DNA from: an uncultured Bacilli bacterium
GTDB taxonomy: Bacteria; Bacillota_I; Bacilli_A; RF39; UBA660
Reading direction: 5' to 3'
NCBI GenBank assembly: GCA_947628485.1
Contig: CANRAA010000005.1
Location: forward strand, 1-38,470
Length of the DNA: 38,470 nt
Shown here: positions 31,204 to 35,241 of the stretch, in pieces
Numbering within the stretch: the stretch's first letter is position 1
Layout: each line of letters opens with the position of its first letter
Notes under the pieces: model-generated
The model's input: the letters and a program-made list of their open reading frames with translations, nothing else
Databases searched by the model: none
Told to the model about the DNA's origin: nothing
Position numbers and translations under genes: made by a program

Positions 31204-33150
31204 TTATTTCTTCATTTGTTCAATAATTTGCGCTTTCAAACTATCGATATTAAGATTATAAGCATTTAATAATTCTTCTTTAGTACCACCAAGAACATAT
31301 TTATCTATTCCTAATATATATTCTTTACCAGTAGCATACTTATACCAAAAATCTTTACTACTATACTCGACAATAAATGTTTTAACGTGAGAAGGAAGTA
31401 ACATATTTTGATATTTTTCATTTTGCATAGCAAATAATTCACTACTTGGCATCGATACTACCCGAAAATCAATACCATAAGGAGCCAGTTCGGTCGCTAG
31501 TCTTAAGGCAATTGGTACTTCACTACCTGAGGAAATAATTATGGCGTTAGCTTCTTCTCTTTCTTTTCTTACTCTATAAGCTCCCCCGAGAACATATTTT
31601 GGATTAGTATCTTCTAATTTTTTAGTATTAATATTCCCCACAATGATTGCCGTCGTTTTTTTATGACTCGTAATTATTTCGTAAACCCCTAAAACTTCAT
31701 TAATATCTGCTGGCCTAAAGGTAATTAAACCAGGGATACTTCTTAAATTATTAATCTCATTTATTGGGTGAAATCCTAGTTCCTCATAAGTATTTAGGAA
31801 AGTATCTTCTGTAAATACATAAGTAATATCTAAATTATTTAAACTGGCTATTTTAATAAAAGACTCCATTGCACTTTCGTAAGTTAAGGAAGTTGCAATA
31901 AACATTTTAAAGCCTAAACTAGCAAGCCCTAAAGATACACTACCTAAAGCTAAAATTCTTTCCCCAAATAAAATGTTTCTGCCCGTTTTTTCTTCTTTAT
32001 TCATAAAAGAAGTATTATTAATTAAACATTTATTATAGTAAAAATTATCATTACTAGCCGCTAGAACAAAAGGACTTTTGGCTGCGATTAAATTAAATAT
32101 TTTACTATTACTTAAAATTAATTCTTCTTCATAACTATCATTTATTTTGATGTTTTCACTTTTAAAATTAACATTAACTCGTCCTAATTCTAAAAAGTCA
32201 ATTATTTCATTTATCTTTTTATTTTCCCGATATTCTTCCACAAGTTCATGCCATTTACTAAGTGGTTTAGCAAGTCTTCTTGCGAGTTCCTCCTTAATTT
32301 CTACTTTTACTTCTTCAATGGTAGCAAAAGCCGAAGGAATACCATACTCATTTCTTAAAGCATCCATATTATCTTTATCTAAAGGAAGATCCGTATAGAA
32401 CTCATCCTCCTCTTTATCTTTAATATTAATTAGAATAACAGTTGATTTTTTATTTCTTTTTGCATCATCTATCGCATCGTCAATCGCACTTAAATTATCA
32501 TTAATAACATCTAAATCAATATTTAAAGCCATTAAACGGTCCATTAATTCTTCCGTAAATACTTCACTAGTTTTACTATCTTTACTAATATCGTCATTAA
32601 TAACGATATAAATTAAGTCTTTTACTTCTTCCGTTGAGGCAAAAGATAAAGCTTCATAAGAAGTACCACTCATTAAATCGCTTAATTTACAAATACAATA
32701 AGTTTTAAAATCTAAGATACTATTTTTTTTGAGTTCATCTTTAATTAAAGTATCTAAATATCTTTTACCTAAAGAAATACCAACGGCCTCTCCGATAATA
32801 TCGCCCGGATTAATACCTCCAACTTGGACTCCTGGAGTCATACTCGTAAGGATGCCTGGGGTAGGACTATCCATTCTTTTAAAATCTTTTAAATTATCAA
32901 TAGTTAAGTTTCGTGTAAACAAATAATTGGCAGCATAATAAGTTGGTAAAAATTCATTATTAACCAACACTCTATCTCTATTAATATAATTAGGACGATG
33001 GATTTCAAACATCAAATGTTTTAAATATAACGTATAAAACACTTTAGATGCGGCAATATTTAAGAAAACATTACCATGACCAGCCTCTCTAATCATATCT
33101 AAACTTAACATCTTTAAATTATTTATTATTAACTTATCTCTTTTACTCAT
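31204..33150 (-). CDS. Degenerate transketolase-like protein, probably catalytically inactive
   Basis: A 648-residue, uninterrupted protein that aligns by eye to transketolase along its whole length. The C-domain is clear: AIIISSGSEVPIALRLATEL and FRVVSMPSSELFAMQ match the family. The active site is lost. The NGHGS motif is replaced by NNEFL (64-68), TPGHPE by TPGILT (97-102), the Mg/ThDP motif GDG by LSD (156-158), and DSHGAPLG by FYTDLPLD. HDSIGxGEDGPTHQP is replaced by EDTFLNTYEELGFHP. Only the first His (AGHGN, 25) seems kept. An active enzyme would have to be encoded elsewhere. It lies 3 nt after the glycosyltransferase gene, so they form an operon; a terminator follows. Confidence 0.8.
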   Translation of the reverse strand: MSKRDKLIINNLKMLSLDMIREAGHGNVFLNIAASKVFYTLYLKHLMFEIHRPNYINRDRVLVNNEFLPTYYAANYLFTRNLTIDNLKDFKRMDSPTPGILTSMTPGVQVGGINPGDIIGEAVGISLGKRYLDTLIKDELKKNSILDFKTYCICKLSDLMSGTSYEALSFASTEEVKDLIYIVINDDISKDSKTSEVFTEELMDRLMALNIDLDVINDNLSAIDDAIDDAKRNKKSTVILINIKDKEEDEFYTDLPLDKDNMDALRNEYGIPSAFATIEEVKVEIKEELARRLAKPLSKWHELVEEYRENKKINEIIDFLELGRVNVNFKSENIKINDSYEEELILSNSKIFNLIAAKSPFVLAASNDNFYYNKCLINNTSFMNKEEKTGRNILFGERILALGSVSLGLASLGFKMFIATSLTYESAMESFIKIASLNNLDITYVFTEDTFLNTYEELGFHPINEINNLRSIPGLITFRPADINEVLGVYEIITSHKKTTAIIVGNINTKKLEDTNPKYVLGGAYRVRKEREEANAIIISSGSEVPIALRLATELAPYGIDFRVVSMPSSELFAMQNEKYQNMLLPSHVKTFIVEYSSKDFWYKYATGKEYILGIDKYVLGGTKEELLNAYNLNIDSLKAQIIEQMKK

Positions 33151-33153
33151 AAA

Positions 33154-34284
33154 CTACCTCTTACTAACTATTAAATTATGAATTTTTTCTACTGACTCAT
33201 TATTATCTAATTTTTTTAATCTTTCATGGGCTTTTTTTATAAACGTATCATTTACTTCTAATCTTTCTAATACTCTTTTAAAGCTCCAGATATTTCTGAC
33301 CTTTAGGCCATATTTTTTTCTGGCTATAAACCTTGCATTGTATTTCTCTTGACCCCCCACACCCGGAACTAGTATCATTGGAAGTCTCATCTCTAAAGAC
33401 TCGGTAACTGTTGCTCCACCAGGTTTCGATATCACGAGAGTACTTATCTTCATTAAATTTAAAACATCTTTGGAATATCCTAAAACTAATACATTCTTTA
33501 TCTTATTCTTTTTAACATATTCTTCGCATTTTACTTTTAATTTTTCATTCTTACCACTTATAAAGATAATATATTTATCTAAATTTAATTTACAAATGGT
33601 TTTAAAGTAATCATAGTAATACATACTCCCGACAGATGAACCACCAAAGAATAAATAAATCTTTTTATCTTTTTTTAAATTATATCTTTTATAGATATCT
33701 TCTAATTTATCCAAATGTTTAATTTTATCAATATTTAAAGGAAGACCAAAGGGGAATATTTTTTTGCTTTCCACTCCTCTTTTAATTAATTCTTCTTTAA
33801 CCACATCATTACCAACAATATAACCATCTTCTAAATGTTTATTTTTAATCCAACATTCATGAGGACTATAATCCGTAATAATCGTATATAGTTTAGGGTT
33901 AATTAAACCTAACTTTTTATAATAAGTAATGATATTGCTAGCATAAAAGTGCGAAGATATGACAATATCAGGATTATAATCCACAATAACATTTCGTAGG
34001 GTTTCATTATCATAACTCTTCTTAGCAAATTCATTATGGGCAAGCGTGGTAAGACGATGGTCCATTAACTCATAGAAAAAATTAAAGATTAAAGCAGGAC
34101 GATATTTTCCTACAAAATCCATTACTTTAACACCAATCCGGCCTAAAAAATTACCATAGTCGCTAATATCTAAAAGTTTAACATTTAAACTACTATCTTC
34201 ACTAAGGTAATTAGCAACATATTTAGCTATGGCCTCATGACCAGATCCATAACGAGCATATAATACTAGAACTTTTTTCTTCAT
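33154..34284 (-). CDS. MGDG-synthase/UgtP-family diacylglycerol glycosyltransferase
   Basis: A 376-residue peripheral membrane glycosyltransferase of the MGDG synthase type (GT28), related to UgtP/YpfP, which transfers glucose to diacylglycerol to make glycolipids for membranes and lipoteichoic acid anchors. The N-domain begins KKKVLVLYARYGSGHEAIA, with FVGKYRPALIF near residue 75 and ITDYSPHECW near 155. The C-domain has LFFGGSSVGSMYY near 215 and the UDP-sugar site ISKPGGATVTESLEMRLPMI near 295-315. The start at 34284 is chosen because GAGGG is 8 nt upstream; upstream Met and TTG codons in frame extend into the promoter. A TTGTTT-17-TATAAT promoter (34332-34304) drives it. Confidence 0.9.
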   Translation of the reverse strand: MKKKVLVLYARYGSGHEAIAKYVANYLSEDSSLNVKLLDISDYGNFLGRIGVKVMDFVGKYRPALIFNFFYELMDHRLTTLAHNEFAKKSYDNETLRNVIVDYNPDIVISSHFYASNIITYYKKLGLINPKLYTIITDYSPHECWIKNKHLEDGYIVGNDVVKEELIKRGVESKKIFPFGLPLNIDKIKHLDKLEDIYKRYNLKKDKKIYLFFGGSSVGSMYYYDYFKTICKLNLDKYIIFISGKNEKLKVKCEEYVKKNKIKNVLVLGYSKDVLNLMKISTLVISKPGGATVTESLEMRLPMILVPGVGGQEKYNARFIARKKYGLKVRNIWSFKRVLERLEVNDTFIKKAHERLKKLDNNESVEKIHNLIVSKR

Positions 34285-34303: not shown

Positions 34304-34332
34304 ATTATAAAACAAATTGCAAAATAAAACAA
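34304..34332 (-). promoter_or_regulatory. Promoter of the glycosyltransferase-transketolase operon
   Basis: TTGTTT (34332-34327), a 17-nt spacer and TATAAT (34309-34304) on the minus strand, close to the upstream gene's terminator. Confidence 0.6.
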
Positions 34333-34352
34333 TGAATTTACTGATTCATTGT
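34318..34352 (-). terminator. Terminator of the 46-codon gene
   Basis: ACAATGAAT (34329-34337) pairs with ATTCATTGT (34344-34352), leaving a 6-nt loop. On the minus strand the stem is followed by TTTTATTTT. The stem overlaps the last codons of the small ORF. Confidence 0.8.
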
Positions 34353-34478
34353 TACATTATAGTTATTATTTGCTAGTTCATTAAGATATGAAAATCTTAC
34401 TTCCAGGAGCAATACTCCTAAAACAATTACGCTATAAAATAAGATTAGTCCTCCAAAATGACTTAACATTTTTTTCAT
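34338..34478 (-). CDS. 46-residue single-pass membrane protein divergent from lexA (putative SOS division inhibitor)
   Basis: A minus-strand gene of 46 codons, too short for usual gene calls. The product starts MKKMLSHFGGLILFYSVIV and continues with LGVLLLEV, one strong membrane helix (about residues 9-27), then a 19-residue polar tail ending NVTMNQ. With Lys2-Lys3 in front, the N-terminus should be inside and the tail outside. AAGGAG (34491-34486) is 7 nt before the ATG. It has its own promoter (TTGATT-17-TATGAT), whose spacer holds the AAAC-N4-GTTT palindrome, and its own terminator, so it looks like a real monocistronic gene. Divergence from lexA recalls YneA of Bacillus and SosA of Staphylococcus, single-pass SOS-induced division inhibitors; there is no LysM domain as in YneA. 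Function is inferred. Confidence 0.75.
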   Translation of the reverse strand: MKKMLSHFGGLILFYSVIVLGVLLLEVRFSYLNELANNNYNVTMNQ

Positions 34479-34499
34479 TATATCACTCCTTCTAAATCA

Positions 34500-34528
34500 A
34501 TCATATCAAAACATAAGTTTGTAATCAA
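34500..34528 (-). promoter_or_regulatory. Promoter of the small membrane-protein gene
   Basis: TTGATT (34528-34523), 17 nt, TATGAT (34505-34500). The LexA-like palindrome AAACTTATGTTT (minus-strand reading of 34520-34509) lies within the spacer, so bound repressor would block RNA polymerase. Confidence 0.7.
34509..34520. promoter_or_regulatory. LexA-like box 1 (AAAC-N4-GTTT), small gene
   Basis: AAACATAAGTTT. It shares the half sites AAAC/GTTT with box 2 and differs from the Bacillus GAAC-N4-GTTC core by one base on each side. It is inside the promoter spacer of the minus-strand small gene. Confidence 0.6.
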
Positions 34529-34555: not shown

Positions 34556-34567
34556 AAACATTTGTTT
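34556..34567. promoter_or_regulatory. LexA-like box 2 (AAAC-N4-GTTT), lexA promoter
   Basis: AAACATTTGTTT overlaps the -35 (TTGACA, 34566-34571) of lexA, an autorepression position. It is 47 bp from box 1. Confidence 0.65.
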
Positions 34568-34594
34568 GACATTTTTTAACTATTGTTGTAAAAT
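34566..34594 (+). promoter_or_regulatory. lexA promoter
   Basis: TTGACA (34566-34571), 17-nt spacer ending TG, then TAAAAT (34589-34594), an extended -10. AAGGAG at 34601-34606 serves translation. Confidence 0.75.
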
Positions 34595-34617: not shown

Positions 34618-35241
34618 ATGATAATACCAGAACTTACACCAAGACAAAATGACATTTTAGACTTTGTAAAAAAATATACGGCTGAACATGGATATCCGCC
34701 TGCCATTAGGGAAATTTGTAAAGGAGTTGGCTTAAGTAGTCCCGCTACTGTATTCGTTCATTTAAAGAATTTGGAAAACTTAGGTTATATTAAAACCACA
34801 AGTAATAAATTTAGAACGATTGAAATTTTATGCGAAAATGAATACTTACCAGTTAATGAAGATGTTATTAAAGTACCACTTCTTGGTAAAGTAACAGCAG
34901 GAAATCCTATTACGGCGATTGAACAACCAAATGAGTTCTTTAAAATTCCCGCATCCTTAGTACCAGCAGCAGCTACAATATTCACTCTTCATGTCAGTGG
35001 TGAAAGTATGATTAATGCCGGTATCTATGATGGCGATTATGTTATTGTGGAAAGACAAAGTACAGCGAGAAATGGTGATATAGTTGTTGCCATGACTATG
35101 GAAGGGGAAGCTACGATTAAAACTTTCTATAAAGAAAATGGTCATATCAGATTACAACCTGAAAATGACACGATGGACCCAATTATATTAGATAATTGTG
35201 TTATCTTAGGAAAAGCCATTGGCTTATATAGAAAATTCTAA
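34618..35241 (+). CDS. lexA: SOS repressor LexA
   Basis: A 207-residue repressor protease. The winged-helix N-domain (about 1-70) includes LTPRQNDILDFVKKYTAEHG, YPPAIREICKGVGLSSPATV and FRTIEIL. The C-terminal S24 protease domain has the Ala94-Gly95 cleavage site (KVTAGNP), catalytic Ser130 in SGESM and Lys168 in EATIKTF, all as in E. coli and Bacillus. RecA filaments stimulate self-cleavage after DNA damage. Upstream is a consensus promoter overlapped by an AAAC-N4-GTTT box; a terminator follows. The divergent small membrane gene shares the operator region. No other clear AAAC-N4-GTTT promoter box was found in the window. Confidence 0.96.
   Translation: MIIPELTPRQNDILDFVKKYTAEHGYPPAIREICKGVGLSSPATVFVHLKNLENLGYIKTTSNKFRTIEILCENEYLPVNEDVIKVPLLGKVTAGNPITAIEQPNEFFKIPASLVPAAATIFTLHVSGESMINAGIYDGDYVIVERQSTARNGDIVVAMTMEGEATIKTFYKENGHIRLQPENDTMDPIILDNCVILGKAIGLYRKF

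Follow-up and report, generated by a model that had tools for sequence, protein, structure and literature searches.

The SOS-induced division inhibitors known so far in Gram-positive bacteria are single-helix proteins encoded beside lexA (PMC6851548). YneA of Bacillus and Listeria (NF010723; 103 to 109 aa) is encoded divergently from lexA, with LexA boxes lying between the two genes, and carries a single N-terminal membrane helix and a LysM domain. The helix binds FtsW TM7, and other SOS inhibitors have been modeled, at low confidence, to bind the same segment; in B. subtilis, a YneA helix on its own localizes but does not block division, for which LysM is required (PMC13396833). SosA of Staphylococcus (77 aa) is likewise a small single-helix protein divergent from lexA; it has no LysM and requires conserved extracellular residues (PMC6851548). 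A very short SOS-induced single-helix inhibitor, SidA of Caulobacter (29 aa), acts on FtsW (PMC4211646); it comes from an unrelated lineage and is likened to the present protein by description. Literature searches returned no description of a lexA-linked division checkpoint in the family of uncultured gut Bacilli considered here.

The divergent lexA locus and its operators

The window analyzed, 38,470 nucleotides, is one contig of a 1.30-Mb genome assembled in 98 contigs. lexA (positions 34618 to 35241, plus strand; TIGR00498, E value 2.8e-66) starts 139 nt from an ORF of 46 codons on the opposite strand (34338 to 34478, with the ATG at 34478 and the stop codon ending at 34338). This micro-ORF was delimited from the ORF list, its conservation, and a helix model, and its predicted product is a single-helix membrane protein (MKKMLSHFGGLILFYSVIVLGVLLLEVRFSYLNELANNNYNVTMNQ). 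An earlier note on this DNA had described a compact unit here, and each of its elements was recovered on the minus strand. The promoter (34500 to 34528) consists of a −35 hexamer, TTGATT (34528 to 34523), a 17-nt spacer, and a −10 hexamer, TATGAT (34505 to 34500), both of which are retained around the LexA box in relatives. The ribosome-binding site AAGGAG lies at 34486 to 34491, and GAAGGAGTGATAT is retained in most relatives. The palindrome AAACATAAGTTTG (34509 to 34521), identified by motif search and comparison with relatives, sits inside the promoter spacer as a LexA box. Motif searching placed a second box, AAACATTTGTTTG, at 34556 to 34568, where it overlaps the lexA −35 sequence TTGACA (34566 to 34571). 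Downstream of the micro-ORF and on the same strand are genes for a UgtP/MurG-like diacylglycerol glycosyltransferase (33154 to 34284; profile matches) and a transketolase (31204 to 33150); in Bacillus and Listeria, a transketolase gene lies downstream of yneA as well.

The paired boxes are a constant feature of the genus. The gaps between the ORF and lexA in 33 genus loci held 65 RAACNNNNGTTY boxes, against a mean of 0.58 and a maximum of 3 in dinucleotide shuffles, and 32 of the 33 carried two: one overlapping the lexA −35 and the other within the micro-ORF promoter, 30 to 40 nt upstream of the ORF and flanked by the −35 and −10 hexamers. A box search of the source genome gave six places, namely the two described here, recA, ruvB, a Y-family polymerase gene, and one before fmt; since a reversed control pattern gave four, the evidence lies in which genes were matched and not in their number. 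In one related genome (G031) lexA is on another contig, and the micro-ORF is still found beside the glycosyltransferase gene with its promoter and a box carrying one mismatch. Judged from the operator sequence and its conservation, the micro-ORF is almost certainly under SOS control.

Some minor features of these sites were also recorded. The box before fmt, AAACAAATGTTTG (L042, about 1501), is about 75 nt from the gene and may be a chance occurrence. In G031 (L051, L034) the relocated lexA adjoins a PilB/GspE-type ATPase gene, and the micro-ORF at the old site now faces a gene for a SpoIVB-like S55 peptidase.

The 3′ end of the unit is a hairpin followed by a T tract (TTTATTTT; 34321 to 34352, minus strand), as also reported earlier, with a 9-bp stem formed by ACAATGAAT and ATTCATTGT (34352 to 34329). 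Its folding energy was −7.2 kcal/mol (z, −1.7), and it was not called by a terminator scan, for which the stem is too A+T rich. The 5′ arm is coding sequence for the terminal Met-Asn of the protein, with the stop codon in the loop; the same overlap was seen in approximately 20 of 36 relatives. A frequent C-terminal MN was considered as a protein signal and dropped, as its codons, ATGAAT, form the terminator arm. Because relatives without the hairpin also usually differ at the protein end, conservation of the terminus appears to be at least partly at the RNA level. A −10 sequence read by eye, TATAAT (34309 to 34304), precedes the glycosyltransferase gene, which is thus probably transcribed separately from the micro-ORF. 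Within 34304 to 34352, this promoter seems to overlap the 3′ arm of the terminator.

The overlap of hairpin and stop codon could suggest that the micro-ORF is only a leader peptide or transcribed spacer for termination or attenuation ahead of the glycosyltransferase gene. This is very improbable, given that the helix is constrained at the protein level, that several relatives lacking the hairpin keep the protein, and that the downstream gene changes between relatives and seems to be served by a promoter of its own.

Conservation in the genus and the wider family

The micro-ORF peptide had a clear match in 33 of the 36 other genus genomes sampled and none in any sampled genome outside the family. 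Related records are mostly metagenome-assembled genomes labeled "uncultured Bacilli" or "Tenericutes." The three genus genomes in which no clear match was found (G016, G021, and G036) also gave no lexA match, but this shared absence carries little weight, the two genes being neighbors and the assemblies incomplete. Relatives adjoining lexA were 44 to 93% identical to the peptide and always frame intact, consistent with the prediction of the earlier note that a functional gene would keep its frame beside lexA. lexA adjoined the micro-ORF in every one of the first 30 loci, with the same glycosyltransferase gene following in nearly all, and the frame was open in all 36 collected sequences, two of which are prophage copies (see below).

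Pooled pN/pS, which is only a rough measure here because synonymous sites are few, was 0.41 in residues 1 to 33 compared with 1.05 in the tail. dN/dS was 0.18 to 0.26 in several close pairs and 0.6 to 1.0 in some others. The part under selection is the membrane helix together with the RFxxLN that follows it, on one helical face, and the tail is unconstrained at the protein level. Purifying selection, which the earlier note had asked for, is thus present in the helix. The micro-ORF is a real gene.

The earlier note had treated the gene as a single case, which proved too narrow. Searching with one micro-ORF profile recovered the gene in just 42 of 243 family genomes. It diverges too rapidly to be captured by a single profile, so members were located by position, using LexA loci to sample the family. 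Across LexA loci on 80 named contigs, where LexA identity fell as low as 60%, most had a short single-helix ORF at the equivalent place, mostly of 42 to 56 aa. Under a strict rule such an ORF was present in 71 of 89 family LexA loci (80%) and in 1.5% of shuffles; a less refined rule for start codons had given 55 of 96 loci. By hhalign, the genus set, a second group, and a polA-linked group were detectably homologous (99% and 95%), and a tkt/yneF-linked group was linked weakly to the polA-linked group (66%). Another family of the class has a 57-aa single-helix ORF between lexA and ynzC (L133; L139, about 2295). In some family members (e.g., L077 and L080) the micro-ORF is absent beside lexA; at these two loci it appears to have been lost, the glycosyltransferase gene starting 97 nt from lexA. 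The short length alone might suggest an ORF that arose by chance beside lexA, but this reading is refuted by the conservation, by the 65 boxes against 0.58 in shuffles, and by the 71 of 89 loci against 1.5%; its probability is negligible.

The genes downstream vary across the family and include those for the UgtP-like glycosyltransferase and transketolase, ynzC, yneF, and polA, indicating that the micro-ORF is tied to lexA. Such tight linkage, together with the UgtP-type enzyme adjoining it in the genus, could be read as the mark of a protein that regulates the SOS response (e.g., LexA/RecA feedback) or another envelope protein (e.g., the glycosyltransferase) and not division. However, a LexA or RecA regulator would not be expected to consist of a membrane helix and a short external tail, different genera have different downstream genes, and the micro-ORF persists in G031 after lexA has moved away, all of which make this reading improbable.

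Comparison with known inhibitors and a proposed mode of action

Sampling of lexA loci across the phylum reached no Bacillaceae. In Bacillus, Cytobacillus, and Listeria, for which YneA loci were taken from plasmid-collection records, the gene order is lexA, yneA, (recombinase), DUF896/ynzC, and transketolase, followed in Listeria by yneF. The micro-ORF occupies the yneA slot, and transketolase is the second gene beyond it, after the glycosyltransferase gene of the genus. Despite this shared position, the product has 46 aa, with fewer than 20 aa after the helix core and no LysM detected by Pfam, whereas YneA is more than twice as long and its LysM is essential in B. subtilis. The peptide gave no match to NF010723, against which a real YneA scored 92 bits, and none of 38 genus genomes had a match above the cut-off. 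No YneA homology of the helix was detected by hhalign (2.9% for the genus, 9.5% for the nearest group; range, 0.3 to 9.5%), and no Pfam, NCBIfam, or PHROGs family matched the peptide. On present evidence, the micro-ORF product does not belong to the YneA family, although it may work like YneA. The suggestion that it is a short YneA/SosA analogue lacking LysM fits its position, SOS operator, single helix, and LysM absence, and is one of analogy.

Structure modeling gave one helix (residues 2 to 44), with confidence dropping in the tail, in agreement with the single membrane helix first predicted for the 46-residue product. F14, Y15, G21, L25, R28, and N33 were invariant in genus alignments. Along the helix, conservation had its strongest periodicity at 100 degrees per residue (P = 0.004 by permutation, or 0.02 with a scan over angles of 85 to 115), and this one-sided pattern suggests a binding face.

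These features bear on a second class of SOS-induced peptides. E. coli type I toxins of the TisB/DinQ kind are short, hydrophobic peptides under LexA that depolarize the membrane; they are encoded outside the lexA/yneA slot and are paired with antisense RNAs. DinQ, at 27 aa, is LexA controlled and depolarizes the membrane (PMC3567139). The micro-ORF product matches DinQ in size, hydrophobicity, and LexA control and could in principle lower membrane potential and growth without acting specifically on division. We consider this unlikely: conservation on one face and the invariant juxtamembrane Arg and Asn suggest a protein partner, and the micro-ORF lies in the yneA slot.

By analogy with the described inhibitors, the micro-ORF product is instead probably an SOS-induced, membrane-embedded minimal division inhibitor. 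Following DNA damage, RecA-stimulated cleavage of LexA would free the two operators of the divergent region, and lexA and the micro-ORF would be induced together. The peptide would insert as a single helix, with its N terminus predicted inside and its short tail outside. The conserved helix face and the juxtamembrane Arg-Phe-x-x-Leu-Asn would then bind a membrane partner of the septal wall-synthesis complex, and septation would be held until repair was finished. Genes for FtsZ and for three SEDS proteins are present in the genome, one of the latter beside mraY. FtsW would be the likeliest partner, although by analogy we place its being the target slightly short of an even chance.

Several points weigh against an inhibitor of this kind. 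The YneA helix alone is insufficient in B. subtilis, SosA needs extracellular residues, homology to YneA was not detected, and the lexA locus of some family members has no micro-ORF. No conserved extracellular tail residues of the SosA type were found in the micro-ORF product, where the tail is unconstrained (pN/pS, 1.05), but the conserved juxtamembrane RFxxLN could be their counterpart.

A division inhibitor at this position would carry the lexA-linked checkpoint into a large family of gut Bacilli that are uncultured and have small genomes, and whose members offer minimal sequences as a natural series. In B. subtilis, YneA cannot inhibit without LysM even though its helix binds FtsW. By what means a helix stops FtsW can be tested directly with a protein that has hardly anything beyond its helix. 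The locus also suggests that genes of fewer than 60 codons in the lexA-adjacent slot are easily missed by annotation.

Prophage copies

A second copy of the micro-ORF was found in two genus genomes, in prophage early regions (L033:1609-1767, within L183, G002:C17; L035 and L184, G007:C7). These copies encode 52 aa, with the same helix and a different tail, and have no lexA adjoining. The neighborhoods include genes for a serine integrase, repressor-like proteins, and SSB, and in one case a primosomal-type protein. No LexA box was seen before the prophage copies, and scans of viral contigs for the copy gave no match.

More tentatively, the family as a whole may use helix-only SOS division inhibitors for which LysM or any outside domain is dispensable, with temperate phages of the same hosts carrying copies to halt host division; we regard this broader proposal as possible but somewhat doubtful. 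If it were true, all function would reside in one helix face and a short juxtamembrane stretch. Gp11 of phage PhiNM1, an early membrane protein of small size that prevents the host from dividing (PMC11237401), offers a precedent for the prophage copies; it is likened by description, and its targets differ, being MurG and DivIC. Another prophage, in a third genome (G437; L185:3051-3317), encodes an 88-aa helix-plus-LysM protein that is YneA-like and scored 52 bits against NF010723, below the cut-off of 60. The presence of both protein types in prophages of these hosts is compatible with, though not proof of, a division-blocking role.
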